35,859 nucleotides of DNA from a virus: the IMG/VR virus record IMGVR_UViG_3300046532_004207, positions 1 to 35,859 of that record. One strand, written 5' to 3'. Shown piece by piece: positions 17,301-34,761 of the stretch (positions within the stretch are counted from its first letter, which is position 1; every line of letters starts with the position of its first letter). A program made the translations under genes and the position numbers. The notes under the pieces are model-generated. The model made no database searches. It saw only the letters and a list, made by a program, of their open reading frames with translations, and was not told the DNA's origin.

Positions 17301-18827
17301 AAAACTCCAGCCATGCTTACCGCTGGCGAATATGTTGTCCGTAAAAAGATAGTTGATAGACTCGGAGTTAGCTCCCTGAATAAAATGAATCAATCTGGGG
17401 ATGTGGATAGTTCGCTTACTAATTTGTATGACAAACCAAACGGAGACTCCATTGACGTTTCAACCTCCGGTTCCGCCGCTCTCCCCCCAATGATGAGATT
17501 TAATGAGGGCGGACATCTTAACGCCGCTCTCTCTAAGGCCAGTCAGCCAATTATTCACCTTGAGAATGGGGGCTGGATGAATCCGCTCGTGGCCAATAAA
17601 GATGATTCGCCGGGTATGAAAATAGGTAAGGGGGCTGGTTATTTACTTGGGTCAATGGGTGCTAATTATTCCGACAGGGACAAATCCCAGAACTCTGGAC
17701 CAGAAGCTCCGCAAAATCCAAACGAGACGCGCCTTAATACTTTTTCCTCCCTTAATATTGATCCTACTGGCCGCCAAATGACGGCAAGGTATAGGCAAAA
17801 TGATGATTATTCTAAAAAATATAGCGACCACCTACTAGCCAAATACCAACATGGAGTTGATATGCAAAACCAAAAAGTCGACAGCAAAGCAGCTCAACTT
17901 CAGGGCATAGCTGGTAGCATTACTACTGGTTTGGCTTCTTACGGAATCCAGAAGGGCTTTCAGGCCCTCAGTAGTCTGGGTAAGGTCGCCGGATTCAATC
18001 CCCTTAAATGGAACGAAAAAGACGCGACTGCGCGAACCGAAAAATATTTTAAGGACAACGAAATTACTAGCACAAACTTTCAATCCAAGGACCCCTCTCT
18101 ATTCGAAAGTACCAGACAGGGATCTAACGTAATGGGACGAGCGGGAAAAAGATTTAGTCGGGAAACCTCTCCGTACGGAAGCTTCGACGGCAACGTCCGC
18201 AAAGGTAGCACATTTCAGTACAACAAAGATCAATGGGGAGAGTTGCACCAAAAAGGCTATGTAGAAAATACCCATGATAACTTCAGGGGAGTAAAGCAAC
18301 ATGCCCCTAAATGGAGAGCCAGAAGTCATGAATTTGAAGATAGCCTAAAGAACAGCGCAAAAACCCTTCAGGATTTCTTACACACAAGCAGCCGAAACAA
18401 AGGCTCCAAGAATCAAGACCCCTCATCTGCGAAATTAGGCTTTAGCGCTGGGGGCAGAGTTCAGGGTCCATCCGGAAGGGATCAGGTTGGTCCTGTTATG
18501 CTCGATAGGGGAGAGTACGTTATTCGAGCTTCCAGCGTGAGTGGAGTTGAGAAGCAGTATCCCGGCTTCTTCGATAGGTTAAACTCGATGAAGATGAACG
18601 AAGGGGGTCCGGTTGCTCCCGTCAAGAGTCCGCTAGATCCGGCAGCTGAATCCTCGACTAGCCAAAGCTCAAGCAACGTAACTGTTAATATAAACGTAAG
18701 CTCTGGAGGCCAAGCCTCCGTGGAGGGCGGAGGTGGCGGCGAGCAAGCCTTTGCTGCTAAAATTAAGGATGCCGTAATTGGGGTTATATCTCAAGAAAAG
18801 CGGGTTGGAGGGATGCTGAATGGCTAA
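5376..18827 (+). CDS. Giant tail tape measure protein, TP901 type, with embedded modules (4,483 aa)
   Basis: ATG 5376 has an AGGAAAAAGG ribosome site. Residues about 40-300 match the TP901/PhageMin_Tail tape measure core: ARVIAFGASAAIIGG, NTSQSLEVAAEAALEFSRQG, then an ITARGGSVIGNSFKTIFTRI stretch. Residues 545-2333 are a chain of globular modules bounded by ten GG-x-(I/V)-P-(N/S)-(F/Y) motifs; most tape measures lack this. A Pro/Ala linker follows (about 2346-2375), then a hydrophobic Gly/Met/Ala-rich segment (about 2385-2530), probably able to enter a membrane. Long charged coiled coils run through about 2560-3860. The C-terminus carries two TPAMLTAGEYVVRKK-like phrases (about 3970 and 4380), a usual tape measure ending. 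The frame is continuous. If fully helical (0.15 nm per residue) it would span about 670 nm; without the module block, about 400 nm. It is the tail length ruler and probably a channel component. It overlaps the next gene by 8 nt. Confidence 0.93.
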   Translation: MQGLGLKTYQIGLGQSVEAVVSRINRRGLAVKVRASDFTQPLGRMSAKANEFTKSLEASNARVIAFGASAAIIGGVTTSFVQLVVQATKVEKILGDINAVLNTSVANLEKFGDGLFNVARNTSQSLEVAAEAALEFSRQGLSMEETLKRTNDALILTRLTGLKAADSVKGLTAAVNGFADVGLSTASIINKLAAVDVKFAVSADDLINALARAGAVAQDAGVSFDQLIGAVTAAQQITARGGSVIGNSFKTIFTRIQRSSTVNRLEELGIAVKDITGKTLPALTVLQNLSDTYDTLAYSTKAAVAEQVGGVFQINVLKAALKDLGKENSIYTQATLTSSSATNQAYQKNAQLQKTLSSIAEQTLTTVRELTANLGELTIAPALKEFLDAANKIMGVFSDMLGEKEGESIGGDFAKGISRAIGNVMAGPGMFALVMIFAKLFSQAFKFAKNSVKDLLQIQSIKEKERAIQESIVDAMIQNETLSTELLKLSGNKAKQEEIVLKLLQKQTAQIEAQRQIAKDIAPSLRRAGVQPNLIVEPAKKTKASGHIPSFGPATPMESRKERAGAQKAGYAAGPVSTMSIPQMGRVVYNKKETVKKFDGMRQPAIMPPQESMAGKTYRKDFSGKHGFDPYKNSGFIPSFAVAPVRGTPQSVFWDYKGNRRKSALSGDDTRELREVHGYDYVNNSWQGINKTGFRLNPKAKNINKKYYKNVGRGAEPVRLSYLEEMMYHDRRLPITDKTAVRSFEKERGLPSGNSISGDSYMNPDFKKKTGVKGLSDLGPHMKKGGLEGPVIIGYDSRQNKIQLSEGHHRVAAALDLNSGLKGQGGDFHRNIPALVQGGPLDSTGGRDYSMGVVNLSKTPRKIPKSVTEALKYNSGRVVGGTWKPSEFGIPNFALEAARIGSSNILRLPTSRMITETTKTDFKGKKHTGWKTLEAPLDNIQKFAASYADEFSALKGMGINLLQRKMYFANQTSLVPKKDTRAVAKTQRTARLAKKGTFANLNQHKITGSAYETALDDNALGGKGYKNTWAGSYGLKGETKGIGNQNAKVDFIKEGRVPIEAKYGKYTPANLIAKSIRLFSDQYVEDYLRAGGEGALAGNMSDRKFNESKKLLEDLGHTGVNTNMIRDWGLSSGLVPNFKFLYQPAISADKIPTDFPTFPIPSVAGKEVDVLGSTNSYYTDPKQLHDFMHTEGKIMLGRLNTPRTEDAGGRLSYLRYNMPNKLYHRLLGKGTGIMGDKKRGPLLRSNSKAYLNRTRMEVHEPFHQQNMNSELNSLYGMHSTGKPIKGFKNKPIANKAYMNNNVQLKRFGKGKVTLTPPSIWNNRASLAALKLDTSQSKLFNIGSLAGNENFIGDMARSVPKGDRGKALREVYGTGDIKALSKYIPSDSAAGGFIPSYADPAVHQPDINRLLFKPIMRARTPKDVAMIAKNFAVSHSTGALSGRYAEGTTGEQKDFEDYLQVGLGEDSYKWEDTKDPYSEANIDTSQFAYETGRDSIASGAVSHTTRLSTANQFAGSAQNVSLSDIGTERDPNAALAAGYTGPPKHIKGNHPIEKNAAEQVKLYRGHDGAVHETNVPKKNIFGYDKIIRVLSLKSRHPRYPMLDRMKKSITDGTFFEYWAKKGLFLNLNGKRNDKKLIGMEDDLGARSGKYYNSPMPSAYPRRMREPGDTIKGEDEVIQLLSGGLIPNFIDPPRKEKPFEIPKNPHAPSGAAVKLYRHGNSIPRKLGGTAHTTINSSMRSFHGGQVPLRSFTSLSGLKTQYKKVAGAKASQVSSNYSEYLLNQSDLHDLSATGGPQNGIFTADPTRINHLKGMQDPRLQGKYQRYMYNSASGNYAGGLIPNFIRAGAGGPRSRVTSKEFAKLSTGLSRWTARNQPDPRLKLIGPEKLFTIPRRRQDETIQNIRQFISSPEYQQTQAPDLKKKITRFYARLLGGSSSDSPDRTFTRHHDPSFEGRIAASGGLIPNFLKTHGGARPGTGPKSSIPWGTLTKTTKDNWKKGEHLDQGSYRDWVNFIQYESDGPKIKLGSYASGRNTIKTFAGTTGKNGKLAAKLYTPYLSKLDPDVGKRSKYGTEVEKALAANWGRKPTPNAYPMDYINNETSLTGTASIPRGGLKLMTDSTVGDSVISPSGHGKVHFFSKFLAHWAKTNPATLKTKLAGADPTFSSTDLDGLPYRDMIGRGSVKTLGTDQKNVDVTAIGSGLIARQKRTLTDLIDEDKTYKFKYDKDYWTYDPFISGNTLMKEGDMASSGHVPNFANPLVDAISREKNALSESGSNARVYVDQDNRLKNIKNPMGLLVANTRDEPSSGSQGVNRAINMGLDPKTHGASSGMMPNYAGIVHKNPFGMPGMPATNPPAAAPAAAPAAAPAPGSGGGQTAPSGGGVNPGAGGDMMMKMMGLTTLMYAFEGALGGANEEVGGFGKTLKILSGVVMGASQAMMISMMLTKGALGKAAGATKAGGGMLLSGGKTLIKGGPGGVIAGRAKGLAGMAKGAGGMIKGGAGMAMGMLGPLGVAAALLIPIFTALKENLGWFTSATEQSAKELEKVEKKMGALGDAAQSAKSAQENSNKLEELKSLGKSRSIAQEEEYVKLQVSSVKNEVKLADSVDSVTRNFKLSDSQLKDLNGSYTEQITMLGKLQIEQARLAGIMARTKSRTKDFEEDHGEGMWATMFSDTTEQKRSKLHDLARLEGKDRGNTAMDMFDMDKVNAMSPKKRNEMLRSLQSSAQEAIPTMYNNLKDQTDSAGWGTGKIWAAKEDWFGALDWESAIKGESQDSGGEVYDNALAPMQEWSQQYKDVLTNPEAGSMALPDLYASALKTGSKSSLIGSGSGNLYNKKVLSNEAAEGMINAITDSIQKGVKPQKSKANFDVQATSRQAKLMSELQTDRLKTMNDMSQKRLDIESKILQNAEKRLGLDTEMEDFFGILTDGEKINRATNSSLRTSREKTQSTNKGINLDAKSKNIDIFKDKINKDIINKDIMEETVGLRLDKIKQVLLDQDIKDEISKLKKGLEERKVEKAEKTKDKFYKDKDTYREHMSREGDDGGVGIESAEQRVFFDALGAAGGGGIGFSVESFNKKLIEFAKLAGTSVSKIKEVMEMKIDLDAGELDFTFNGAEGIDPFGIANNDFTVNEYRKGENAPDGYESTALSWGLEQMKELQRESRLTSTTPERRAKIVDEIADHKKNVNSPFQVFDGSDTGTDETKANTMNRLLSDGRANKGNNASVKMATKQANYNNTLAEANVDNEAGQMNNLTIKAYQIRIKQAIKDADFADAKFWKGRLDDFVETSGEVTRAKLKADAEAKIPKKQKTSTVGTSADADPNTALALIERVNAERKARKAAGPAEGPDVGRTKEMQASNDMLKAKLAGLNETKADKIARIKAQYSIGATPPASAPADKAKPSPASAPVDIAKKTAGIAARTVPRDPSLATPAAFQSGMAFTQTQGNPWIPHTASSVLDEASSKSQTKEMKDSVRDLGDELFNELEALKAKRMTQGDDKPLDVNMTDVASTIQRVIGKEDTSTQINAIKEFNAKNEKPDQASLTGLTGEGMDQFSLSLAKVEAERRNKINVNNEAGDLDVERIGIEALKEHFQKRTVQGATAAQDMLKKIESQPGGLQGQVSEAAGVQLKARGMFAPMEGKVAEAQLSATQSQLKDGSLRKVMMMEEKKALATLLRNNIIDLEKSKINNDLLDGTKRGLELTRTSLSKKTEGMRAGLIEIQNKLKLANLTEELAKQAQIEIQTKLKGLDLEYKTLDAKQRYYENTNALAEEVAKELKNRAKTDDMKRSRTQEEWLQQDNKDVERGNGKTYRQNRVGNEFKDQMGQRGQNIKDSRTAMKYHNEGGNSLRASESRLGMLQLQKEQNIDQGKTRLFSDTIAVKIAEVNNELERFNETLANTTFDSVKQGFRDMVTAMGDGTKSMGDAMLGFLGGIANAIHEQLLDRATKQITSGIFEMMGMGKISENNRGGLIRGYASGGSVGSSGKTPAMLTAGEYVVRKKIVDRLGVSSLNKMNQSGDVDSSLTNLYDKPNGDSIDVSTSGSAALPPMMRFNEGGHLNAALSKASQPIIHLENGGWMNPLVANKDDSPGMKIGKGAGYLLGSMGANYSDRDKSQNSGPEAPQNPNETRLNTFSSLNIDPTGRQMTARYRQNDDYSKKYSDHLLAKYQHGVDMQNQKVDSKAAQLQGIAGSITTGLASYGIQKGFQALSSLGKVAGFNPLKWNEKDATARTEKYFKDNEITSTNFQSKDPSLFESTRQGSNVMGRAGKRFSRETSPYGSFDGNVRKGSTFQYNKDQWGELHQKGYVENTHDNFRGVKQHAPKWRARSHEFEDSLKNSAKTLQDFLHTSSRNKGSKNQDPSSAKLGFSAGGRVQGPSGRDQVGPVMLDRGEYVIRASSVSGVEKQYPGFFDRLNSMKMNEGGPVAPVKSPLDPAAESSTSQSSSNVTVNINVSSGGQASVEGGGGGEQAFAAKIKDAVIGVISQEKRVGGMLNG
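7275..8060 (+). other. ParB/Srx-like module within the tape measure
   Basis: This is the segment between the second and third boundary motifs (residues 634-893). It contains GPVIIGYDSRQNKIQLSEG followed by GHHRVAAAL (H808, H809, R810). That layout, a short strand pair and then (D/E)-G-H-H-R-x-A-A-A, is the signature of ParB N-terminal/sulfiredoxin-like domains, which occur as NTPase or nuclease toxins and in phage proteins. Activity is not shown. The other half of the module (VFWDYKGNRRKSALSG onward) is unrecognised. Confidence 0.5.
8040..8795 (+). other. PD-(D/E)xK nuclease-like module within the tape measure
   Basis: Between the third and fourth boundary motifs (residues 889-1139) lie E1012 in a helix (SAYETALDDN), D1050 (KVDFI) and E1060-A-K1062 (VPIEAKYGK), followed by a helix. 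The order helix-Glu, then D, then E-x-K about ten residues later, is the catalytic signature of PD-(D/E)xK phosphodiesterases such as restriction endonucleases and Holliday junction nucleases. All three core residues are present, so it may be active. The call rests on the motif and spacing only. Confidence 0.5.
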
Positions 18828-21956: not shown

Positions 21957-22838
21957 ATGGAGCAATCTATACATAAGGAAATATTTGAGCTTGAACTCTC
22001 AGTAATAGTGGTTCTTTACGAAATAGTACTCAAGGATCACGGTGGGGCAAAGTATTATTTCCATGCCGGAGAAAATGGATACCAAAACACATTGTATTAC
22101 GGAAACGGAACCGGAGCAAATGCATACCACTACATTCCTGTGTCCGCTCAAGGATTCGACTATACGGACGACACCCTTCCCAGACCCACCATCAGCTTTG
22201 ATAACACAAACAGTTTTTTCAGCTTAAAGACAAGATTCTTTGAGGATTTTATTGGCTATGAGATTAGGCGCATTAGAACTTTTGTGAAGTTTTTGCATGG
22301 AAAAAATTTCCCCAATGACATCAATCCATATGGCACCCCCACCGAAGATTCCTTTCCCACGGAAAAATATGTCGTCAATCAAAAGACCGCAGAAAATTCA
22401 GAATTAATTTCCTTTGAGCTAACATCTGCCCTCGAAAAGGAAAGGGCGTTTATACCTAATCGCAAAATAGTCTTCAACACATGTCAGTGGCAATACAGAA
22501 GCTCCGTTGGCTGTGGGTACAATGGAGCTCCCGTTACGGATGGCAGAGGTAATGCTATTTCCCTTACCTTGTCGGATAAAGGAACATTTAATATTTCAAC
22601 AACCTATAACGAAGGTGACTATGTTAAGATTGAAAATACAATCAACCCCAATTCACCACCCAAAGTTTATGTATGCTTGAAAGATAACACCACGGGCATA
22701 AAGCCCGACAACGGAAAAGATAAATGGCTAGAAGACGCTTGCCCCAAAAATATATTTGGGTGCAGAGCTCGCTTTCAGGCCGAAGAAAAAGATGACGGAT
22801 TACCATTTGGGGGATTCCCTGGGACTTGGGAACAGTAA
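21957..22838 (+). CDS. L: gpL-like tail tip protein, Fe-S cysteines split by an inserted module (293 aa)
   Basis: The C-terminal part carries the gpL pattern C-x-W-x-Y-R...C-G-Y...C...C: C176 and C186 (TCQWQYR, GCGYNG), then C262 and C269 (ACPKNIFGCRARF). In lambda gpL four such cysteines hold an iron-sulfur cluster at the tail tip. Here about 75 residues separate the pairs. They include a sequence like a chitin-binding (ChtBD3/CBM5/12) module: YNEGDYVKIE, VYVCLKDNTTG and KWLEDA. Residues 1-170 match a gpL ring domain in position, and the GAKYYFHAGENG-like start is plausible. Start ATG 21957 lacks a ribosome site but follows the previous stop by 16 nt. The gene overlaps the gpK-like gene. Confidence 0.85.
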   Translation: MEQSIHKEIFELELSVIVVLYEIVLKDHGGAKYYFHAGENGYQNTLYYGNGTGANAYHYIPVSAQGFDYTDDTLPRPTISFDNTNSFFSLKTRFFEDFIGYEIRRIRTFVKFLHGKNFPNDINPYGTPTEDSFPTEKYVVNQKTAENSELISFELTSALEKERAFIPNRKIVFNTCQWQYRSSVGCGYNGAPVTDGRGNAISLTLSDKGTFNISTTYNEGDYVKIENTINPNSPPKVYVCLKDNTTGIKPDNGKDKWLEDACPKNIFGCRARFQAEEKDDGLPFGGFPGTWEQ

Positions 22839-23538
22839 GCCTATACTGGCTGCAATTAAGGAAGCCCTCTCCAAGGATCATGAGTCTTGTGGAGTGTTTT
22901 ACTTTTCTGATGATTTGGATTACAAGTATTTATCCCTAGACAATGCTAATAAAATTGATAAAAACTATTTCTCCATTAAGAATAAAAAATTTTATGAATT
23001 ATATTTAAATGATAAAATTATATCCCTCTTTCATAGCCACACAAAAGACCACGATGAAAACCCCAGCGTGGACGACATAGAGGTCTCTGAGGCTCTAGCT
23101 TTGCCATCTATGATTTTTTCTTTAAAAACTAAATCCCAATTTATATATTTCCCGAAATCACACAAACCCAGACCGCTAAAGAAAAGAGTATTTATACCTT
23201 ACTTTCAGGACTGCGTTTCTTTTGTGAAGGATTATTATTATTTGAATTTAGATATAAAGCTACAAGAAGTTGTTTCTAACTGGGCCAGAAGGAGGGAGGA
23301 TCCGAATGAGTTCTTAATTGAGGAAATGGGTAAAGCTTTTTATGAAATTAATGAAAGCCCGAGGCCTCACGATATCATTGTATCTCAGCCATCCATGAGT
23401 GAATTATTTCATTTATCCATATATGGTAAGGAAAACACAATACATCATCACCCTATCGGATGCTACCCCAAGAGGGAATTATTTCTGCCTGAGTCACTGA
23501 ATAAAGTGTATAAGACATATAGGCACAAGGACTTATGA
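22792..23538 (+). CDS. K: gpK-like tail protein: JAMM peptidase plus NlpC/P60 (248 aa from ATG)
   Basis: A longer frame begins at TTG 22756. I chose ATG 22792 (MTDYHLG), which still lies inside the gpL-like gene and has a weak GAAGAAAAAG upstream. The N-terminal half has JAMM/MPN metal-site residues: a Glu in DHESCGVF, HSH at residues 81-83, then S92 and D95 (H-x-H-x8-S-x2-D; the classical spacing is seven). The C-terminal half is NlpC/P60-like, with C141 in FQDCVSFVKDYYY and His candidates H207 (FHLSIYG) and H218-H220. Lambda gpK has the same two domains and is needed for tail-tip assembly, with likely peptidoglycan cleavage. The stop overlaps the next ATG by 4 nt. Confidence 0.88.
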   Translation: MTDYHLGDSLGLGNSKPILAAIKEALSKDHESCGVFYFSDDLDYKYLSLDNANKIDKNYFSIKNKKFYELYLNDKIISLFHSHTKDHDENPSVDDIEVSEALALPSMIFSLKTKSQFIYFPKSHKPRPLKKRVFIPYFQDCVSFVKDYYYLNLDIKLQEVVSNWARRREDPNEFLIEEMGKAFYEINESPRPHDIIVSQPSMSELFHLSIYGKENTIHHHPIGCYPKRELFLPESLNKVYKTYRHKDL

Positions 23539-26500
23539 AGAAATTTGTTTTACATGGAGAAATGGCGGATCTGTTTGGACCCGAAATAGATCTTGACGTA
23601 TCTAGCCCCCACGAGGCAATCCATGCTCTATGCGTTAACCTAAAGGGCTTCCGTCGTTACATTATCAAAAAGTCCCTGTCTGGGGTGAGTTACGAATTCG
23701 TAGACACTAAAAAAAATAAATACGAAAGCTTCTGTGGTCACATTGTCCTGAAAGATAATCGATATGACATTATAGCGTCCCCCCAAGGTCACGGAGGAAT
23801 GATGGCCTTCTTTGGGAGTAATCCCATTGGAGCTGGATTGGCTAATGCTGCAATGGGTTTTGGCATGCAGAAACTTGTAAATAAGTTCACTAAGGGCTCT
23901 ATTCAGGAAGACGACGTTCCGGAGTACGAGGTTATCGAAACGAACTCTTTCATATATTCCCAGAACGAAAACAAAACCCAGCAGGGATCCCCAGTTCCCG
24001 TTATTTATGGTCAGTTGAGAGTTGGTACTAAAGTTATTAATTCTAGCGTTGAAAACTACGACTACAACAATGACGATGCGTATATTTATGAAAACCCCCC
24101 CAACCTAGATTCAATTGAAATGATCCACGGGGGCCAGTACAGCTTTGTGCTCCCACCTGTTGGCGATGATTTTAGATCAACAACAGATTTGGATGCATTT
24201 GCTTCTTTTTCAGCGGCAGGAAAGAGAGCCATGACTTTTGGTGAAAATGGAGCGAAAGAATTTGATCCTAACATAGGAAACGAAGGCCAACATGAATCCT
24301 TCAATGCGGGGGACGAGAAACAGAGTAAGTGGGATGCTATGTCAATGTCCAAATTTGGCCCCTCCAGCAATAAGCCCCTGAAACGTTCTGGCGGAGAATC
24401 AAGCTTCAAGGAGAATGATACCATTAGACCTTATGTATTTCCGCCTTCTGATCAAATAGACTACTGGATGAGACCTCAAGGGCATAATGATATCTGCATA
24501 GAAAGAGAAACGAAAAATAACATAGTAGTTAGTGAAAATTTAGCTTGGGTCGGAAGCGACATCAACTCAGATCAAATGAGGATTGGAAATCGTGGACAGT
24601 TTCAAAAGCTGGAATCCATCGGACTATATAAGTCTCTGGAGGTTCTTTCCGAAGGTCCAATTGCTGGGCTAGCGATGCCAATATCAACAACTTCTACGGA
24701 TGACAATGGAAGGGTTACGTATCCACTTGAGGTCTCGGATACTCAGGAGTCCACCAGAAGCGCTAAGTTATCTTATCTGAAATACCACGACTATGTCCCT
24801 GCCGGAAACCTTCAACTCGCAGACAGCTCGACAAACACCGCGACATTAACCATAAAGTCAGCCGGATCTGAATATAAAGATATTAACGGAACTCTCCTAG
24901 ATGGAGCCTATAGCATAACAGGCAATGATTTAACTAACCATGACCATAAGCTCTTCATCGGTATGGATGCTCCCAACGTTTCATATTCAGCTAAAATTAC
25001 GGATACTACGTTTGACGATTCCACATCCTATGACGTGGGAGGTACCGAATACTACCTCTCTGAAAATAAAATATTTTTAATAAACCCCGTTGACGGGGAG
25101 CTCATCATGAACTCCAGTGGTAGTAATAACCCAGCTAAATTGGCCGCTAAATATTACGATAGTGAATACACCTTTGACCTTGAGGCTCTGTCCGATGACC
25201 CGCCCAAGAGGCTTCCTGATGAATCCGAAGCCATTGACTTCTTTGTTGGGGAAAACTATCCTAACGGCACTACCCAGTATTCCATTGTGCCAGATAATCA
25301 AAAAGCGGAATTTGACATAAGTATAGAGCCAGCCAGACACACTGAGGATATTTTTTCAAAAGCTCAATGTCTGGATCTGGGAGCCCTTATGGGTCACGAC
25401 ATTGTTGGCCAAACGATTACCACGGCATATCAGCAATTTGAAACTTATGACGTTAGCGCTACCGTCCCAGGTGCCGTAGATAGAGATGGTAATTCATACA
25501 ACTGGACTGAAATGTGTAGAATTTTTACTGCAGGGAGTAACAGTCTTCCGAGTGATGCGAAGGATAAGCCGGTATATATTCCGGTAGGATTTCTAGCTCG
25601 AAAGGATGGCTTGGACTTTAACCCGGACACAGCCAGCAATTCTAGCCTGACAAACCTTGAGTATTATCTTAACGCATTTAAGTATGAAAACGGAAAACTC
25701 AAGACAACCGCCCCTCCTGACGGCATGGGAGTCCTCCAGTGCGCTCAATTGTACGTCAAACTTACCGTAGGTGAATACATTGGACTAAGAGAGGTTCCTG
25801 ACGACTGGAACGGTTTCGAGAATTGGTACATGAGCTTCGGTTTCGGGACCACAAAAATTCAGGTTAAAGAATACGTCCAAATGCACACTTTTTCTCCAAG
25901 CGCGGCAAATTATCCATCGTGGAATATATACGAAGATTATTCTTCTGGCAATTTAGTTTCCCATAACGGTCTGGTCTATGAGGCAAAAGCATCAATTACG
26001 GGAGACCCAAAGACCTCAAGCTATCCAGCGTTCGACCTAACCTTTAGTTACCCAATAAACTCAAGAGTTCAGCACGGAGGCTCTACCTACAAATCCAAGG
26101 CTGCAATTACGGGCAACCCAGCTCCGTATAAGGTTGATGAGTGGAGCAGATTTAATCGTTACTCTACTTTTTCATCATCCACAGCAACCTTCCCCGATGT
26201 GTCTCAATTTAATAACACAAACACGGTAACATTCGGAAGTAAGTTCTACAAGAGAACCGGTGGTACAATTAACCCTCAGCCCGATGATTACGGCTTAAAA
26301 ATAGCCCTATCAAGCTGGCTAGCTGCCACTTCATACAGTAAGGGTGATATTTTTTACGACGATGCCGGTTCTGGTTTAAACGATTACTATTTTGCTAAGC
26401 AATCAATTGTGGGAGACCCAAGTAACGTTGAACCTACAACCAACCCCACGCAGTTTCAAAAGTTTGAATACCTTCCGCCAGACGTAGATTCAGACTGGGG

Positions 26501-29500
26501 TGAAATAACCCTGATGGCTGGCAACCCATCTTCCCTGACGACAGAGTGGGAAGAGGTTTCCGTAGAGAACTCCTCCCCGCCATCCCCTGAGAAAAAATGG
26601 GATGGATTTAGTGCGTTTGCTCAAGGAGAATGCGTGGCTTATGGTGGGCAATTTTACTGCGCGACAAGTACTATTTCATCAGTCGTTAATCCCGACACCC
26701 TCCCAGTCTGGGACCCTCTCGGTTCTTACGGAATCACCGTTGATGGCGGGGTTAGTACCGTTCAATATGGCGGCTCAGTTTATACGTTAAAAACTGGTGC
26801 AGATATTTCTCCGGAAATAGATGATGGGTTCCTAACTGATACGGAAGTTGAGACTCAATACCTCATCAACACCACCCTGTATTCCGATTATGCTTCCGTC
26901 AATGGAATTTGGCCCTCGGTACCCAAGTATGACGGGGCAGTTCTAGTGGAAAATGACCCACCTGACCAAGCAAATTCAATCGACTGGGAAGAAGTAGAAG
27001 CTAATCCTGTCCCAACGGCATCGAGTTCAGGTTGGGCTGAAAACGCGGAATGGAAACTTAAAGAGTCCTCCTTTTCGGAAAGTTTCTCCAAGGATAATTA
27101 TTACGTTCATTGTGATTATATGTCAAGAGAGGGAATAATTCAGAATCCTGACCCCTCCCCAAAATCCCCTGGGTTCTTTGCGGGGCTTTTGGGTAAAGTA
27201 AAATATATTAGGCAATCTAACGTAAATGAGCATGTTGATGCGATTACGCAAAGTTCAGACTACTGGCGAAAACTAATAAACGGCGACGGCAAAGGTATAC
27301 ATATGGGAGACTTGATCAGGGAAGACTTTCAAAAGGCTACCAAGACGGGCAATACGGCTGCAAGATATGAAAAGAAAATAAAAAAACTGTTAAGTGGCAG
27401 CACAATTTCTCACAACTTCGCGGAAGGCACGACATTACTTTACCATCATGGTCCAGACTTTAATGAAATAATCCTTCTGGAATTTGAGAGTCTCTATGGC
27501 TCTGCAGGCGTTCCCAGCAGCTGTCTTTCTTCGCTTGGCTCGAGAATGGGTAACTCCAGACAGACGGGGGCAATCGTACAGTCTGTCACGCTTGGCTCAA
27601 CCTCCTATAATGTCTCCAACTCCAGTCAAGCCATCATTGACGAGCTGGAAATAAGTGCATACAAAAGCAGCAGAACCAGACACGTGAGGTTCGTCGCTGG
27701 TTCCGGCGGAGACAATCTGGACGGAGCGACTTACATAGACAGCTTTCCGGAATATATGCGACAAGCAAACAAAGAAACGTTCGACGATGTTGCTATGTAT
27801 CGGAAGGGCTACAACGAAAAGGACGACTCTACTAATCCTTACGGATTTTATGACCCAACTTATTACCCGAGGGTTACTGTTTTTGTTTTGAGAAAACGAA
27901 CTGATGGAGATGTTGAACTTTGTCCGACCTTGATAGAGGCCGTTGCTAAGGTCGACTCATCAACCGGAACCATTGATAGGGTTCACCTGCTAGGTAGTTC
28001 GGAAAATCCGGTATATGACCATTCGATGATTAGTGAAAACTCCAACGGATTTACTCCGATTTCTCCGCAAAATATTGAATTCGCAAGATACAACTTCCAG
28101 TCTGCCGACAATCGCTATCAAGACGTGGGTATATATTTAAGGATTGACGCTACTCACGGCTACCATTCTGTTTCGTTCGATGCTACTAGCGGAAGCTTAT
28201 CGTCAATGTCAAATGGAGGACAGCTAGGTCTGGCTAGTAGCTGGAGGGATCACATCATTTCAGATGGAGTCGGGATATACAGGGAGATGCCAATAATGTC
28301 AAATGGTCAAGAGATAAAAATTGGCGAGATAGGTAACACCAGTGGATCGGTTACAGTATCAACGGAAAACTCTCTGGATACAAGTGCAGCTGTTGATACT
28401 ACTAACCTACCAACCACCATTAATACTGGCAGGGTTAAGTCCATGTCAATATCCAATGTGGGAAGCGGTTACGATAATAAATTTCAAGGCTACGTTTTTA
28501 ATCGAAAATACCTCGTTAGAAGCATAACGTCAACCGGTTTCGAGAGGGGGTATAAGCCAGACTCATCTTTTATTGTTTATGGAGTGCCCAAGAGCATACT
28601 GGACTCAACGACATCTAGTTCCGCCATAGCTCCTTTTGCGAAATTCAAAGCAAGGGTCCATGTTAATCAGTATGGCTCAATCCAGCAGTCTACCACTACG
28701 CCTGTCGGAGAACAAATGAAAACACCTGTTCAGGTTATTGATTCGGGTTATTCATTTAGCGACGAGAACGATAGCCTGATATTCCTGAGCTCCACATATC
28801 ATGACGATCTGTCTTTTTCTGATCAAAGCAAATTAACCTCCGTGATAGGTGCGGTGGATTCAGGCATCTCCTCAACTAATGAGTCAAATTTTTTAGTTCC
28901 GGAACTTCATTTCAGTAAGCAGACAATGATCCTTGAGGCAACTATGTCTGGTGGCATTGTTAGTAAAATTTCCATATCCACAAATGGTTTGGGATTTAAT
29001 GGTAGCCGAGTACTGAAAGACCCCTTTCAATTGATTGACTTTAGGGCTCCTAAGTTTAATTTGGTTTTCTCAAGTGGGGTGCTTCAGTCAGCCTCACTAG
29101 ACGCCACCTACGGAACTTCTGGTTATTCACCAAGTGACACTAGGGTTAAAACTAGATTCAGTAATCCATTCGTTCCGGCCGGATCATTTCCGCCAGATAA
29201 TCCGAATAATGATCCCTATGATAAATTTAGATCGATATATCTAAACGACGTCCCGATTCGAGACCACACGGACAGATTTAATTACTCTAAGTTCCATTTT
29301 GACATGAGGATTGGTAATTACAAAAACCATCACAACACGCATCCAATTGAGGGGGATCTTGCACCTCTGGCTAGCTTTCAATTGATGTCCAGTGAGTTTA
29401 GGGTACCCACCCATACTAAATTCGTCAACTACCCCCTCTGGGGGCCCAGAAACGAAGGAGAGAAAGACTATTACTATACCCACACAATAAAAAATCCAGC

Positions 29501-31604
29501 GATTACCAATGTCTCTTTTTCAATTAAAATTAAACAGCTCCATTATATATACGAAGGGGATGAGTCTGCGGTATACCTCAATCTCGTTCCGATTATAGGA
29601 ATGATCCTTGGTTGGCTGCTCGGAAAGTGGATAATGGAAAAAATAGTAAAAACTATTTTTCCGGAAGTAACCATAGGCTTTGGCATGGGCACAGTCGTGG
29701 GGCTTACAGTCCCTGGTCCTACAACGGCAATGGAGTTTGTTTTTGCGGCTATGGCTTGGGCTCTCGTCATTGGTGGCGGGATAATTGGAGCCCTACTGGC
29801 TTTCTCTTGGCTAAAAAAGCATTTTAAATGTAAAATGATCCCTTGGCTGTGCATTAAGATTGGAAATAAGATTAAAAATAGCGGCGAAATCTGGCCGGCT
29901 AAGGCTAGGTTCTGCATTGAGCACGGAGTGGAGGGCGAGGAGCTCACCAAGGACACTTTCATCTTCAGGGGGTGCGCAACTAGTGATTATGTCAAGGATA
30001 TTTATATTAATAATTTACCCGAAGCTCAAGAAATAGGAGTCAACACTGAAATTAAAAAGAATCGCATTTTTAGAGTTTATCGCTTAACGAGAGAGCTTGA
30101 TCCCGTTACTGGTGGGCTGGTGGAGGCAAGATACAAAATCGGTGCGGAATTGCTATCTGTTACTGAATATGTGGACGGTTATTTTTCCTATCCCAATACG
30201 GCCATAGTGGGAACTAGACTGAACTCAAAAGATCACCCAAGCCTTCCAAGGAGAGAATATTTGATCAAGGGCAGGTTAATCAGAATACCGAGCAATTACA
30301 ATCCTGTCAACGGAACTTACTCAGGAGTATGGAACGGTCAATTTCATGAGAAGCTACAGTGGACAAGCAATCCGGCTTGGATTATTTTTGATTTATTGAC
30401 AAACGACAGATATGGCATGGGAAAATACGGGATAACCGACGAAGATATTGATAAGTGGTCGTTTTATAAGTTTGCAAAAAGGTGTGATGAAAAAATTGAC
30501 GTTATTGTCGAGGGGGTCGCATCTGAGGAGCGTAGGCATATGTGCAATCTTTATATAGACTCAGAAAGGCAGGCTTATGATTACATAAGGGACTTAATGA
30601 AAATATATAACACTAAGATCAATTTCACTGCAGGAACTATTCACATCGTTCAGGATGCCCCCGCCGAACCAGACGGAGGCCCTGTAATGCTATTCAACAA
30701 CTCCAATGTTAGTGAGAAGGGTTTCGCTTATTCCAGTACTCCGGAAACCGATAGGGTTACTGCTGTTACGGTAGACTTTATTGATGAAAGAGATAACTAC
30801 ATGAACAAGACTGAATATGTGGAAGACGCAGAAGGGGTAAGAAAGCATGGATACTCCCACTCTAAGATTGCCGGATTAGGCATTACAAGAAGAGGGGAGG
30901 CTCATAGGTTAGCTTGGCATAAAATACTCACAAAGCAGTTGGAGAAAGAAGTTATTAATTTTGAAACCGGAATTAGGGCTGCCTATCTCAGGATAGGTGA
31001 CGTCATTGAGGTTATGGATAATAACAAGACCGCAAAGCATTCCGGCGGAAGAATTTCGTCTATAATAGATAGCACCACGATAGAAATTGACATCCCTGTC
31101 GAGGCATTGGGTAATACGACCTCTCTATATATAGAGTCCCCCGTACAAGACCATGACCAGTGGAAGGCTAACCACTCATTCGCTCTCACCGACATAGTTA
31201 TACATGAATCCCTATTCTACGAAAATACCTCGGGATCCAATACCGGTGTGCCCCCCAATGAAGACGAAGCTAACTGGGTGAGCTCAGAAACAATTCGTCA
31301 GACACAATTTCAAGAATATTCCATATCAAGCAAGAGTGGATTCAATGTTGTTCTGTCTAGCAACATATCTAGCAATATCAAAGAAGGCTTCACTTGGATT
31401 ATCAAAGAAAACGAGGAGGACAAATCTAAACCAAGACAATACAAGATAAAGGAAGTTAAGGAAATTTCGCATCTACAATACGAAGTTAGTGGAACCGACC
31501 ACATAGAAGACAAATACAATCAGGTCGATAATAGCGCTGGAGCTCAAGAGGGTGTGGAATTTGAAAGTCGTGAATATTACGGCCCCCCAATTAGCATAGC
31601 CTGA
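23535..31604 (+). CDS. J: Central tail tip protein: gpI-gpJ fusion with large insertions (2,689 aa)
   Basis: Residues 1-115 are gpI-like (MKKFVLHGEMADLFG, then a Gly-rich AFFGSNPIGAGL segment), normally a separate gene in lambda. Then come gpJ blocks: SPVPVIYGQLRVGTKVI (about 151-167), LSEGPIAGL (371-379), SIYLNDVPIRD (from 1900), ATSDYVKDIYINNLP (about 2150), YPNTAIVGTRL (about 2221) and NPAWIIFDLLTNDRYGMG (about 2277). Between 379 and 1900 lie about 1,520 extra residues, including sugar-binding-like modules. A hydrophobic hairpin lies at about 2015-2100 and another sugar-binding-like module at about 2538-2580. Lambda gpJ is 1,132 aa. gpJ forms the trimeric central fibre and hub that contacts the receptor. 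ATG overlaps the gpK-like stop (ATGA). The frame is intact throughout. Confidence 0.92.
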   Translation: MKKFVLHGEMADLFGPEIDLDVSSPHEAIHALCVNLKGFRRYIIKKSLSGVSYEFVDTKKNKYESFCGHIVLKDNRYDIIASPQGHGGMMAFFGSNPIGAGLANAAMGFGMQKLVNKFTKGSIQEDDVPEYEVIETNSFIYSQNENKTQQGSPVPVIYGQLRVGTKVINSSVENYDYNNDDAYIYENPPNLDSIEMIHGGQYSFVLPPVGDDFRSTTDLDAFASFSAAGKRAMTFGENGAKEFDPNIGNEGQHESFNAGDEKQSKWDAMSMSKFGPSSNKPLKRSGGESSFKENDTIRPYVFPPSDQIDYWMRPQGHNDICIERETKNNIVVSENLAWVGSDINSDQMRIGNRGQFQKLESIGLYKSLEVLSEGPIAGLAMPISTTSTDDNGRVTYPLEVSDTQESTRSAKLSYLKYHDYVPAGNLQLADSSTNTATLTIKSAGSEYKDINGTLLDGAYSITGNDLTNHDHKLFIGMDAPNVSYSAKITDTTFDDSTSYDVGGTEYYLSENKIFLINPVDGELIMNSSGSNNPAKLAAKYYDSEYTFDLEALSDDPPKRLPDESEAIDFFVGENYPNGTTQYSIVPDNQKAEFDISIEPARHTEDIFSKAQCLDLGALMGHDIVGQTITTAYQQFETYDVSATVPGAVDRDGNSYNWTEMCRIFTAGSNSLPSDAKDKPVYIPVGFLARKDGLDFNPDTASNSSLTNLEYYLNAFKYENGKLKTTAPPDGMGVLQCAQLYVKLTVGEYIGLREVPDDWNGFENWYMSFGFGTTKIQVKEYVQMHTFSPSAANYPSWNIYEDYSSGNLVSHNGLVYEAKASITGDPKTSSYPAFDLTFSYPINSRVQHGGSTYKSKAAITGNPAPYKVDEWSRFNRYSTFSSSTATFPDVSQFNNTNTVTFGSKFYKRTGGTINPQPDDYGLKIALSSWLAATSYSKGDIFYDDAGSGLNDYYFAKQSIVGDPSNVEPTTNPTQFQKFEYLPPDVDSDWGEITLMAGNPSSLTTEWEEVSVENSSPPSPEKKWDGFSAFAQGECVAYGGQFYCATSTISSVVNPDTLPVWDPLGSYGITVDGGVSTVQYGGSVYTLKTGADISPEIDDGFLTDTEVETQYLINTTLYSDYASVNGIWPSVPKYDGAVLVENDPPDQANSIDWEEVEANPVPTASSSGWAENAEWKLKESSFSESFSKDNYYVHCDYMSREGIIQNPDPSPKSPGFFAGLLGKVKYIRQSNVNEHVDAITQSSDYWRKLINGDGKGIHMGDLIREDFQKATKTGNTAARYEKKIKKLLSGSTISHNFAEGTTLLYHHGPDFNEIILLEFESLYGSAGVPSSCLSSLGSRMGNSRQTGAIVQSVTLGSTSYNVSNSSQAIIDELEISAYKSSRTRHVRFVAGSGGDNLDGATYIDSFPEYMRQANKETFDDVAMYRKGYNEKDDSTNPYGFYDPTYYPRVTVFVLRKRTDGDVELCPTLIEAVAKVDSSTGTIDRVHLLGSSENPVYDHSMISENSNGFTPISPQNIEFARYNFQSADNRYQDVGIYLRIDATHGYHSVSFDATSGSLSSMSNGGQLGLASSWRDHIISDGVGIYREMPIMSNGQEIKIGEIGNTSGSVTVSTENSLDTSAAVDTTNLPTTINTGRVKSMSISNVGSGYDNKFQGYVFNRKYLVRSITSTGFERGYKPDSSFIVYGVPKSILDSTTSSSAIAPFAKFKARVHVNQYGSIQQSTTTPVGEQMKTPVQVIDSGYSFSDENDSLIFLSSTYHDDLSFSDQSKLTSVIGAVDSGISSTNESNFLVPELHFSKQTMILEATMSGGIVSKISISTNGLGFNGSRVLKDPFQLIDFRAPKFNLVFSSGVLQSASLDATYGTSGYSPSDTRVKTRFSNPFVPAGSFPPDNPNNDPYDKFRSIYLNDVPIRDHTDRFNYSKFHFDMRIGNYKNHHNTHPIEGDLAPLASFQLMSSEFRVPTHTKFVNYPLWGPRNEGEKDYYYTHTIKNPAITNVSFSIKIKQLHYIYEGDESAVYLNLVPIIGMILGWLLGKWIMEKIVKTIFPEVTIGFGMGTVVGLTVPGPTTAMEFVFAAMAWALVIGGGIIGALLAFSWLKKHFKCKMIPWLCIKIGNKIKNSGEIWPAKARFCIEHGVEGEELTKDTFIFRGCATSDYVKDIYINNLPEAQEIGVNTEIKKNRIFRVYRLTRELDPVTGGLVEARYKIGAELLSVTEYVDGYFSYPNTAIVGTRLNSKDHPSLPRREYLIKGRLIRIPSNYNPVNGTYSGVWNGQFHEKLQWTSNPAWIIFDLLTNDRYGMGKYGITDEDIDKWSFYKFAKRCDEKIDVIVEGVASEERRHMCNLYIDSERQAYDYIRDLMKIYNTKINFTAGTIHIVQDAPAEPDGGPVMLFNNSNVSEKGFAYSSTPETDRVTAVTVDFIDERDNYMNKTEYVEDAEGVRKHGYSHSKIAGLGITRRGEAHRLAWHKILTKQLEKEVINFETGIRAAYLRIGDVIEVMDNNKTAKHSGGRISSIIDSTTIEIDIPVEALGNTTSLYIESPVQDHDQWKANHSFALTDIVIHESLFYENTSGSNTGVPPNEDEANWVSSETIRQTQFQEYSISSKSGFNVVLSSNISSNIKEGFTWIIKENEEDKSKPRQYKIKEVKEISHLQYEVSGTDHIEDKYNQVDNSAGAQEGVEFESREYYGPPISIA
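25917..26819 (+). other. Cluster of ChtBD3/CBM5/12-like modules in the gpJ insertion
   Basis: Residues about 795-1095 repeat the pattern W/Y-x-x-G-x-x-V-x-(H/Y)-x-G-x-x-Y-x-(A/S)-K/C: YSSGNLVSHNGLVYEAKA, INSRVQHGGSTYKSKA, SYSKGDIFYDDAG...YYFAKQ, FAQGECVAYGGQFYCATS and VSTVQYGGSVYTLKTG. Several are followed by (I/T)-(T/V)-G-(D/N)-P. This is the look of short carbohydrate-binding modules of the ChtBD3 type. At least four to five copies are visible. Binding specificity is unknown. Confidence 0.6.
29577..29834 (+). other. Hydrophobic hairpin inserted in the gpJ-like protein
   Basis: Residues about 2015-2100 contain two long apolar helices (VPIIGMILGWLLGKW and FAAMAWALVIGGGIIGALL), separated by a Gly/Val-rich segment and followed by SWLKKHFK. 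The segment sits between the FnIII-like strands (NVSFSIKIKQL before, WPAKARFCIEHG after), where gpJ relatives normally have a short loop. It could insert into the host membrane during DNA delivery or pack in the trimer core. Confidence 0.65.
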
Positions 31605-31605
31605 T

Positions 31606-32187
31606 ATGAAAAACCACGATATTACATTTGAGTGGCCGCATTTCGACTTAATGCACAACAATGTCCTTGTTGACGTATATCAAAATAACCTTTTTGACTA
31701 CAGGGTAAAACAGGAATGCAAAAATAATTCCATCAATATTTCTATTCTCCCGAAAAGCAGCTCAGTTTTCGTGAAAGTTTATCCAGATAACGACGGCTCT
31801 ATTTACAACGAAGAGTTTTACTTAAGCGACACGATAGAGGCCACTGAAGGGCCCTTAAGACCGGTTGAGCCAAGCTTCGAGGACGTGGAGGTACTCGCCC
31901 CCTCCATCGAGTCAATTACCAGATCAGTAATAAATTCTGATGATAATTTCATATATATCAAAATAACCCCCATCTTCGGGGTAATACCTCAATATTTATT
32001 GCTGAAATTTTATTATGATAAAAACCGCACCAAGTTAATGAAGGAGTACAAAACTCATGACGTGCACAGTGCATTGATCAAGTACCCTAGGGGTGAATCC
32101 AGCTATTTAAGTATTTATCCTTTTACTAAAGAAAAATCCGGAAAAAAATTTATTTATAATAATATATTTAATTATCAATGCATTTAA
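31606..32187 (+). CDS. Uncharacterised protein after the tail tip gene (193 aa)
   Basis: ATG 31606 lies one base after the gpJ stop and has no ribosome site, so translation is probably coupled. The protein looks like two beta-sandwich halves: the first ends near VFVKVYPDNDGSIYNEEFYL, and the second contains NFIYIKITPIFGVIPQYLL. The link between them is Pro/Glu-rich (GPLRPVEPSFEDVEVL). The halves are similar in pattern (a polar strand, then Y-P near each end: VKVYPDN, LSIYPFTKE), suggesting an internal duplication. No family was recognised. The position suggests a tail-tip accessory or fibre-attachment protein. Confidence 0.65.
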   Translation: MKNHDITFEWPHFDLMHNNVLVDVYQNNLFDYRVKQECKNNSINISILPKSSSVFVKVYPDNDGSIYNEEFYLSDTIEATEGPLRPVEPSFEDVEVLAPSIESITRSVINSDDNFIYIKITPIFGVIPQYLLLKFYYDKNRTKLMKEYKTHDVHSALIKYPRGESSYLSIYPFTKEKSGKKFIYNNIFNYQCI

Positions 32188-32591: not shown

Positions 32592-32626
32592 GGGACTCTT
32601 CCGATTGGGTTGTGTAATGTATCTTG

Positions 32627-33667
32627 ATGGATATATTACTTACCGCATCGTTTAAGAATGGTTTGTGGGTCAACGGACTACAGCAAAACATTGTTTTTTT
32701 AGCAGAACTTCTTCAAAATCTTGGGCACAATGCCATGATCGCCGTCAATCATCCTCTGGATAAGTGCAAAGAACCTCCGGCGGGAATACTTTTTATGGAG
32801 GAGCACGAGATGCCTGAGTACACCTTTGATTATATTCTACAAACTGGCATCATGTTGAGAGACGACTCGATTCGAGCTGCAAAAGAAAAAAATCCACGAC
32901 TAAAAAACGTTCATGTTCATTACGGGAATAGGCTTATTACGGATGTCGAGATTTGTGCCAGCAATAAGAAAAAAGCCCTAAGAACATATTCCGTTGACGA
33001 AGTTTGGGTTTCTCCGCACTACACGTTCTCCATCCCCTACCTTCAAACCTTCTACAGAAGCCAAAGGGTATTTAATATTCCATACATATGGTCCCCCAGA
33101 TATATGGACGAATCACTTAGGTACAATTCAGATGACGACAAAAACATTGGCATTATGGAGCCAAATCTGAATATGACAAAAAATTGCTTGATTCCAATAT
33201 ATTTAGTTGAGAATGTTTTTAGAAGCGAGCCCGATCTATTCAGTTGTTTGCGCATTCATAACTCCTCCAAACTCAAGGATAAAGATTACTTTAAAAGCTT
33301 AATGCTTAGGTTGGATATAGTAAAAGCAAATCGCAAGGCTATTTTTGGGCCCCGCATTCCAATGAAGGAGCTGTTTAAAATTTCCAATGTAATTGTCTCG
33401 CACCAACTCCTAAACTCCCTGAATTACGTGTATCTTGAAGCTATGTACTTGGACATGCCTATAATACATAACTCTGAGGACATAATGGAGGCTGGATACT
33501 TCTATCCTGATTATGATATAAATGTTGGGGCTGAAAAATTAAAATACGCCCTGAAGTTCCACGATGACAACCTTGATGACTACCGCAAGAAATCAAAGCG
33601 GGTGATGGATAGATTCTCCCCAGATAGCGAGCTTGTGCAGGATCAATACAGGAGTCTAATCGGGTGA
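32627..33667 (+). CDS. DUF2827-type glycosyltransferase (GT-B like), paralogue 1 (346 aa)
   Basis: I start at ATG 32627 (MDILLTASF); a TTG one codon upstream is possible. The sequence follows the DUF2827 layout: N-terminal LWVNGLQQNIVFLAELLQ and LGHNAM, a middle VWVSPHYTF and PYIWSPRYMDE, then IMEPNLNMTKNCLIP, and a C-terminal IVSHQLLNSLNYVYLEAMY followed by PIIHNSE. The last block is the usual nucleotide-sugar binding Glu region of GT-B enzymes (E in YLEAMYLDMP). It shares all these blocks with the next gene. The substrate is unknown; it would transfer a sugar to a fibre protein or to host surface glycan. The end overlaps the next start by 4 nt. Confidence 0.75.
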   Translation: MDILLTASFKNGLWVNGLQQNIVFLAELLQNLGHNAMIAVNHPLDKCKEPPAGILFMEEHEMPEYTFDYILQTGIMLRDDSIRAAKEKNPRLKNVHVHYGNRLITDVEICASNKKKALRTYSVDEVWVSPHYTFSIPYLQTFYRSQRVFNIPYIWSPRYMDESLRYNSDDDKNIGIMEPNLNMTKNCLIPIYLVENVFRSEPDLFSCLRIHNSSKLKDKDYFKSLMLRLDIVKANRKAIFGPRIPMKELFKISNVIVSHQLLNSLNYVYLEAMYLDMPIIHNSEDIMEAGYFYPDYDINVGAEKLKYALKFHDDNLDDYRKKSKRVMDRFSPDSELVQDQYRSLIG

Positions 33668-34761
33668 GAATAGGGATTACTACAGACTTATCTCAGAGTT
33701 TTTGGTCCAATGGTCTGAATCAGAATGTAAAGTTCTTGTATGACATTTTTCACAGGCTCGGACATAATGTGTTCTATATAACCGACAACAAACCCTTAAC
33801 CAAACTTTCCTTTAATCATAAATATATTTCACTGGAGAAAGTCGCGGGCGATCCGAGCGAAACATTTGATGTTGTTATTTGCTGCGGATGGGAAATGTCA
33901 ACCGAATGCATTAAGAAGATAAAATCCAGAAAAACTAATGTAAAGTTCTTTTCCTTATATCTTGGCAATAAGATTATGTTTGATATGAGGGATTTGATTT
34001 TCAATGACAGAAATGGGCCTTTTCGATTTAATTCCGTGGAATACGGAAGTCTTTTGTCTGGCATTTGGCTTTCTCCCCATCATGAGTTCGGGGCAGAATA
34101 TGTTAAGGTGGCATATGGAAACGACAGCGTCAAGGTTGCTCCGTATGTGTGGGATCCATTCTTTGTTCAAGAAAGAATTGCCACGCTCAAGGCGGCCGGC
34201 AAGGATCCGTTCTTCAGGCCTGATCGAGTCTCCAGAGTCCAAGTTTTTGAATCGAATACTCTAATTAATAAAAACATGATGATTCCATTTTGTATCGCCC
34301 AAAGATTTGATAAGGATTTTCCTGATGTTTTGGGTGGGGTTAATATTTTTTGTACCTCAAAACTAAGACATCGTGAGTACTTTAAGTCATGGGTGAGTCG
34401 ATTTGACATTGTGAAGAAAAAAGGTTTTCTTTATTTTAACAATAGGTGGTGTACTCTTGACGCTATGGCCAAGTGGGGCGGGACCATAGTCTCCCATCAA
34501 TATGACAACGACTTGAATTACGCCCACTTTGAGGCTCTCTACATGGGAATTCCTTTAGTTCATAATTCGGAAGCTCTCATTGATCAGGCCTACTATTATC
34601 CTAGGTTTGACGTGGGAATGGGTAGCAAGCAGTTATATAACGCGATACAGAACCACCACTCCGTGGAGAAGGACTACATGCATTACGGCAGGGAATTCGT
34701 ATCTAAATACAGCCCGTACAACCCCGATATATTGGCTCAATATGCAGAAATGATAAAATGA
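33664..34761 (+). CDS. DUF2827-type glycosyltransferase (GT-B like), paralogue 2 (365 aa)
   Basis: The start is GTG 33664, overlapping the previous stop (GTGA), and this gives MRIGITTDLSQSFW. It is a paralogue of the preceding gene: FWSNGLNQNVKFLYDIF and LGHNVF, LSPHHEFGAEYV, PYVWDPFFVQE, VFESNTLINKNMMIPF, and IVSHQYDNDLNYAHFEALYM followed by PLVHNSE. Length and block spacing are close to those of paralogue 1. Two tandem copies suggest that two linkages are made in series or that the enzymes form a pair. The GT-B C-terminal Glu (FEALYMGIP) is present, so activity is likely. The stop overlaps the next ATG by 4 nt. Confidence 0.75.
   Translation: MRIGITTDLSQSFWSNGLNQNVKFLYDIFHRLGHNVFYITDNKPLTKLSFNHKYISLEKVAGDPSETFDVVICCGWEMSTECIKKIKSRKTNVKFFSLYLGNKIMFDMRDLIFNDRNGPFRFNSVEYGSLLSGIWLSPHHEFGAEYVKVAYGNDSVKVAPYVWDPFFVQERIATLKAAGKDPFFRPDRVSRVQVFESNTLINKNMMIPFCIAQRFDKDFPDVLGGVNIFCTSKLRHREYFKSWVSRFDIVKKKGFLYFNNRWCTLDAMAKWGGTIVSHQYDNDLNYAHFEALYMGIPLVHNSEALIDQAYYYPRFDVGMGSKQLYNAIQNHHSVEKDYMHYGREFVSKYSPYNPDILAQYAEMIK

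Follow-up and report, generated by a model that had tools for sequence, protein, structure and literature searches.

A lambda-like tail-tip protein with gpI fused to gpJ and a 1,520-residue insertion in its hub

How does a tail-tip hub protein of the lambda gpJ type carry some 1,500 extra residues between two sequence blocks that are close neighbours in lambda, and what might these residues do? The question is raised by the window analysed here, the 35,859-base IMG/VR virus record IMGVR_UViG_3300046532_004207, a metagenomic contig in which positions 23535-31604 of the plus strand form one uninterrupted frame of 2689 amino acids (aa) with no internal stop. An earlier note, made from the letters alone, had read this frame as gpJ with gpI fused in front and with an insertion of about 1,500 residues at 24672-29231. 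Both points hold. Residues 1-177 cover nearly the whole gpI family (phrog_32, 1.2e-19, family positions 4-200 of 203), and a profile of the N-terminus in the clade described below matches gpI of the solved lambda tail tip (8iyk_I, 3.7e-11). Residues 2208-2669 match gpJ (phrog_31, 5.4e-114), and phmmer matched lambda gpJ (8iyk_J) at 8.8e-55, from residue 2117 of the fused protein. The gpJ block LSEGPIAGL occupies residues 371-379 and SIYLNDVPIRD begins at residue 1900; window positions 24672-29231 are exactly residues 380-1899, that is 1,520 residues between the SEGPI and LND/LNS blocks, compared with about six in the aligned lambda record.

The fused protein and its relatives

When lambda J, unfused relatives and the window are aligned, the insertion falls close to the N-terminus of J, in a short turn that links SEGPI-G to the LND/LNS strand; unfused relatives have about 9 residues (L080) or about 26 (L078) at this place. 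The region belongs to the HDII-insertion domain (PMC10721106, PMC11101478). One of these two studies describes a swing of the first HDII-ins1 strand towards the membrane during tip opening. The parts of the fused protein are as follows.

23535..31604 (+), fused gpI-gpJ hub protein, 2689 aa; single open reading frame with phrog_32 N-terminal and phrog_31 C-terminal
23535..24065 (+), gpI-like plug domain, residues 1-177, lacking the hydrophobic helices that a separate gpI has (phrog_32; lambda gpI profile match; hydropathy)
24066..24590 (+), poorly conserved gpI-gpJ linker, residues 178-352 (alignment; ratio of nonsynonymous to synonymous substitution, dN/dS, exceeding that of gpI)
24591..24671 (+), gpJ start block, residues 353-379 (KLESIGLYKSLEVLSEGPIAGL), conserved in all relatives; lambda J and unfused J align with it
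24672..29231 (+), insertion, residues 380-1899, in the SEGPI-LND turn of the HDII-insertion domain (lambda J alignment; domain names from PMC10721106, PMC11101478)
29565..29816 (+), two hydrophobic helices, residues 2011-2033 and 2065-2094, in the FNIII-A / HDII-ins2 domain of J
29877..31541 (+), gpJ hub core, residues 2115-2669; its lambda alignment runs to about residue 603, and the FNIII fibre is missing (phrog_31; phmmer; lambda J alignment)

The gpI part, the gpJ part and the insertion core served as queries in scans of viral contigs. The gpI-gpJ fusion was found in 23 distinct IMG/VR contigs, and an identical copy occurs in a second contig, IMGVR_UViG_3300047669_002491. The earlier note had called for a search for relatives with and without the insertion, and this search recovered both kinds: 21 of the 23 fused contigs carry it (960-2155 aa where measurable, a range that holds, together with the fusion, for every near-complete clade member), while the sisters L075 and L076 are fused and have only a turn of about 35-45 aa at the site, which is likewise short in unfused J. 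L075 (7067-12706) and L076 (1210-6312) have a different insertion of about 290 aa in a nearby loop, with a CBM5/12-like (carbohydrate-binding module) motif visible by eye; judging from the alignment, the sister lineages appear to have taken insertions in two different loops of the same J region.

A tree of the J core, built by maximum likelihood from 42 rows, sets the insertion clade apart with support of 100/100, the fused-only pair with 100/98, and fused from unfused proteins with 99/97. Because this tree separates the insertion clade, the fused-only pair and the unfused rest, the sequences indicate a single fusion followed by a single insertion on this sample. Cultured phages yielded no match to the insertion; in the sampled rows, the annotation gives their gpI matches as small genes of their own, which the annotated regions that we checked bear out. 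The hub had no match to any cellular genome in a genome-collection scan, and for this reason no host was found.

Core, array and variable segments

The insertion has two layers. In an alignment of 17 proteins, a core (about residues 380-720 plus 1375-1899) is found in all aligned proteins and the block at about 721-1374 is variable; the core amounts to about 850 aa and is kept in every relative with the insertion. The full array of the variable block is found only in the window, L002, L015 and L022; in compact relatives the block is nearly absent.

24672..25694 (+), insertion core, first half, about residues 380-720, aligned in all relatives; mostly at a predicted local distance difference test score (pLDDT) of 80-94 in a compact homologue
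25695..27656 (+), variable array, about residues 721-1374: six or so CBM5/12-like motifs counted by eye, followed by a stretch specific to the clade
25920..25991 (+), best CBM5/12 motif, residues 796-819 (PF02839, 29.7-32.9 bits, cut-off 26.2)
27657..29231 (+), insertion core, second half, residues 1375-1899 (alignment and scans of relatives)
31161..31223 (+), isolated CBM5/12-like motif of the last hub domain, residues 2543-2563; some relatives share it and others have a short loop in its place (alignment; array hidden Markov model, HMM)

An AlphaFold2 model of the compact relative L018 (residues 349-1540, 24 sequences) gives the insertion a mainly beta fold with pLDDT mostly 80-94; at this high pLDDT, the insertion therefore folds on its own in the model. 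A search with the core fold found nothing in PDB or BFVD at E <= 0.001. Serine plus threonine make up 14-28% of each 200-residue block across the insertion, with a peak at 1601-1800.

By sequence and predicted fold, the array modules are CBM5/12-like. Pfam CBM_5_12 (PF02839) scores 32.9 bits when the stretch is scanned alone (cut-off 26.2) and 25.5 bits, just under the cut-off, in a whole-protein scan. A purpose-built array HMM placed motif copies at residues 796, 888, 1022 and 2543, and further weaker copies were seen by eye in the alignment of the variable block. Foldseek matched the array model, whose overall confidence is low, to CBM5/12 domains (E 2.3e-4, probability 1.00). The matches include the tandem CBM12 of Vibrio chitin deacetylases (E 3e-4, probability 1.00), portions of receptor-binding structures from the Agrobacterium phages 7-7-1 and Milano (probability 1.00) and, more weakly, chitin-binding domains of chitinases. 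The sugar-binding-like modules proposed earlier are thus present by both measures (32.9 bits and Foldseek), but modules alone do not make up the insertion, which also contains the conserved core of about 850 aa.

Two pairs of near-identical phages show where the protein changes. L018 and L009 share about 16 kb at about 96-97% identity in aligned blocks, downstream fibre-like gene included. Their alignment breaks inside J, at L018 8023-8249 and 10444-10569, and there is a large length difference further downstream. The proportion of differing J sites is 41% at 640-925 (mid-insertion), 43% at 1440-1525 (the hydrophobic insert) and 18% at 1985-2045, compared with 4.4% elsewhere. The window's variable array corresponds to the mid-insertion stretch that differs so sharply, the hydrophobic hairpin is the second such stretch, and the isolated motif at 2543-2563 sits near the weaker third spot. 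In the second pair, L071 and L072 (about 97-100% identical), weaker dips to 79-91% occur before about 900, at 1600-1690 and at about 1830-1850, and this raised divergence falls at places comparable to those of the first pair. Since the differences concentrate there in both pairs, the comparison suggests that the mid-insertion and the hydrophobic hairpin are host-contact parts; such segments may be exchanged by recombination. The dN/dS ratios indicate purifying selection in the conserved parts, strongest in gpI and the J core, and mostly purifying selection in the insertion core. Outside J, about 1.5 kb of L009 (about 14216-15803) has no counterpart at the matching place in L018; the stretch lies within a downstream gene of 896 versus 378 aa.

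The hydrophobic helices are themselves displaced. We scored hydropathy in 55 distinct loci (Kyte-Doolittle, 19-residue window, threshold 1.6). At loci with a separate gpI, a hydrophobic segment lies in gpI in 32/32 and in J in 0/32; at fused loci it lies in the gpI part in 1/23 (a borderline 1.61) and in J in 22/23, the exception scoring 1.55. Lambda J has only a short loop at the site of the helices. This swap is probably one historical change and not 23 independent ones, because the fused proteins form one clade. The H1/H2 helices of lambda gpI are predicted to be transmembrane and are proposed to enter the outer membrane (PMC11101478), and T5 pb3 is anchored by a hairpin of its plug (PMC10038345).

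The C-terminus of J is also altered. Window J aligns up to about lambda residue 603, 20 residues short of its stop, and the FNIII domains, shaft, fibre and receptor-binding domain of lambda are missing. Since J ends where the lambda FNIII fibre begins, the insertion probably takes over some work of the missing C-terminal fibre instead of adding to it. The next gene is short in the window.

31606..32187 (+), short protein where compact relatives have a fibre-like gene of 650-1006 aa

The downstream protein has 650-1006 aa in most compact relatives and 193 aa in the window, 294 aa in L002 and 273 aa in L015; these three have the largest arrays and short downstream proteins. The downstream gene of compact relatives starts with an FNIII-like stretch, weakly similar to the FNIII of J (hhalign probability 11%), and might be a split-off central fibre of J. 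Two relatives have a longer J: that of L002 (3371-14701) has 3777 aa and a long C-terminal extension of Pro/Thr repeats (ITPTPS...), and that of L015 (2504-17830) has 5109 aa and a long C-terminal extension with a weak Calx-beta match.

A possible sugar-gripping arm and its alternatives

We consider it fairly probable that the protein is the tail-tip hub of a lambda-type siphovirus, with plug and hub in one chain and with the insertion serving as a sugar-gripping arm. The N-terminal gpI part would be the plug in the lumen and the gpJ part would form the trimeric ring. The chain would leave this ring at the HDII-insertion domain, in its first turn, run through an arm of about 1,500 aa and return. 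This arm, presumably outside the tip cone, would consist of a structural base common to the clade and a distal CBM5/12-like array that grips surface sugars and serves as its swappable part for gripping bacteria. Binding would open the ring and release the plug, and the two hydrophobic helices, moved from gpI to FNIII-A of J, would then enter the outer membrane and guide DNA ejection. The earlier note had spoken of built-in side arms projecting from the tail-tip ring; the arm role is likely, given the sharply bounded variable segment and the chitin-binding-like fold, whereas the geometry did not find the same support. That the ring closes around the insertion is suggested by the conserved flanking sequence.

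Several observations weigh against the arm. The array of the window is modelled at a mean pLDDT of 45, with some single modules good, and both ring flanks fall below 50 in the L018 model. No structure shows the direction of an arm. Most compact relatives have no recognisable CBM modules, and the actual receptor binder could be the product of their long separate fibre-like gene. Modules of the CBM5/12-like kind occur widely and may target other things than host sugars. The helix counts are not independent, being one event in one clade.

A possible objection is that the insertion is mainly structural, replacing the FNIII collar that seals and braces the lambda tip, with the downstream fibre-like protein binding the receptor. 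Such a role would suit a J that ends at about lambda residue 603 without the FNIII domains that close the lambda tip (PMC11101478), a core kept in all insertion-bearing relatives, and a long downstream gene with an FNIII-like start in the compact ones. We nevertheless regard it as unlikely: between near-identical phages the mid-insertion changes and the downstream fibre-like gene does not, the window has just 193 aa at the fibre position, and the FNIII likeness is weak. An enzyme-like device for surface degradation or anchoring, such as a depolymerase, would also be a large all-beta domain of unmatched fold with sugar-binding-like modules, as in many polysaccharide-active proteins; however, no enzyme family was found in the insertion with Pfam or PHROGs (catalytic residues were not searched for), and with the core fold unmatched at the threshold above we hold this to be quite improbable.

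It is just as improbable that the chain is cut after translation, leaving gpI, arm and hub as separate proteins and the fusion as a merely genetic one. The poor conservation of the linker at 178-352 is what a processed linker could show, but its length is similar in all relatives and a Pfam scan found no protease or autocleavage domain in J. For an assembly artefact or chimeric contig one could point to the metagenomic origin of the record, which has no isolate; the same architecture in 23 distinct contigs and the identical copy leave this idea a negligible probability, and we take it as refuted by these independent contigs. Chance and assembly accident are excluded because the architecture recurs in so many of them.

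Returning to the arm, one may extend the proposal to a re-partitioned tip, in which the membrane hairpin has passed from gpI to FNIII-A of J and receptor binding from the C-terminal fibre to the internal arm; hairpin and arm would co-vary between strains, with receptor contact and membrane entry evolving as one single-chain unit. We put this forward tentatively, with somewhat more doubt than belief. There is no settled account of how tails of the lambda type open and get across the outer membrane, which the gpI helices are so far proposed to enter; a clade that has the helices in another domain of the same machine provides a natural experiment on which of the positions matters. Candidate host-contact surfaces in uncultured phages are further marked out by the variable spots. 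To the question posed at the outset, the clade answers that a lambda-type hub can stay one chain despite 960-2155 extra residues in its first turn.

Neighbouring genes and likeness to known systems

The genes upstream of the fused frame resemble gpM, gpL and gpK, which is the lambda order except that I and J are fused.

21957..22838 (+), gpL-like minor tail protein (Pfam Phage_tail_L 2.1e-34; phrog_18 3e-51)
22756..23538 (+), gpK-like protein, immediately upstream of the fused gene (phrog_30 1.3e-25; NLPC_P60 weak, 0.006, below cut-off)

Further upstream lies a tape-measure protein of 4483 aa (5376-18827, +; Pfam PhageMin_Tail; PHROG tape measure). Tail length follows a rule of about 0.15 nm per tape-measure residue, and a tape measure of this size would imply a tail several hundred nm long. 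Directly after the tail genes come two adjoining DUF2827 genes (1.9e-65 and 2.1e-64; 32624-34761, +) and then a Glyco_transf_34 gene (34758-35528). Together they are a possible glycosyltransferase cluster, which might decorate Ser/Thr-rich tail proteins or alter the host surface.

The closest likeness is to the lambda gpJ/gpI/gpL tip (PDB 8IYK, 9E7M), with which the window shares the gene order M-L-K-I-J, recognisable gpI and gpJ, and a hub that aligns to about residue 603. It differs in the fusion of gpI to J, in the 1,520-aa insertion where lambda has about six residues, in hydrophobic helices that lie in FNIII-A of J and not in gpI, and in a J without FNIII, shaft, fibre and receptor-binding parts. 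The earlier note had treated gpI as normally a separate assembly protein. It is separate in lambda, but in solved lambda tips it is also a structural plug, three copies of which are bound to gpJ (PMC10721106, PMC11101478). T5 pb3 combines gpL, gpI and the N-terminal part of gpJ (PMC10721106). Since gpI is a three-copy plug in lambda and T5 pb3 has its plug in the same chain, the fusion would, by analogy, mainly join two partners of equal copy number, and the changed assembly pathway that the note read from it is no more than a possibility. In pb3, plug and hub share one chain as here, and the T5 fibre is a separate gene (pb4); however, HDI is also in the pb3 chain and the plug lies within the HDII insertion, whereas here gpL is separate and gpI is N-terminal, a likeness drawn from published descriptions.

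The general kind, fused hubs and Dit/Tal proteins decorated with CBMs, is already known from the literature, and hub subunits vary between one and three polypeptides and gain domains by fusion (PMC13243795). In the literature we found, what is new is the size, the core without a fold match, the coupling to a membrane hairpin that varies, and the fact that this hairpin has been relocated. The evolved Dit/Tal proteins of phages of Gram-positive bacteria (PMC7291167) likewise carry carbohydrate-binding modules in loops of a tail-tip ring protein. The present insertions are far larger (960-2155 aa), with a conserved core without a fold match, and sit in a lambda-type gpJ with modules of the CBM5/12 family, unlike the BppA type there. 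Salmonella phage Jersey gp32 has an extra domain, HDII-ins3, on the HDII-insertion finger of a lambda-type gpJ (PMC13243795), as here; it is a single Ig-like domain where the window has a multi-part insertion of about 1,500 aa, a likeness at the level of the domain. Finally, the array has its module fold in common with the parts by which the Agrobacterium phages Milano and 7-7-1 bind receptors (PDB 8FQC, 9RKV), there in other tail parts and another context.

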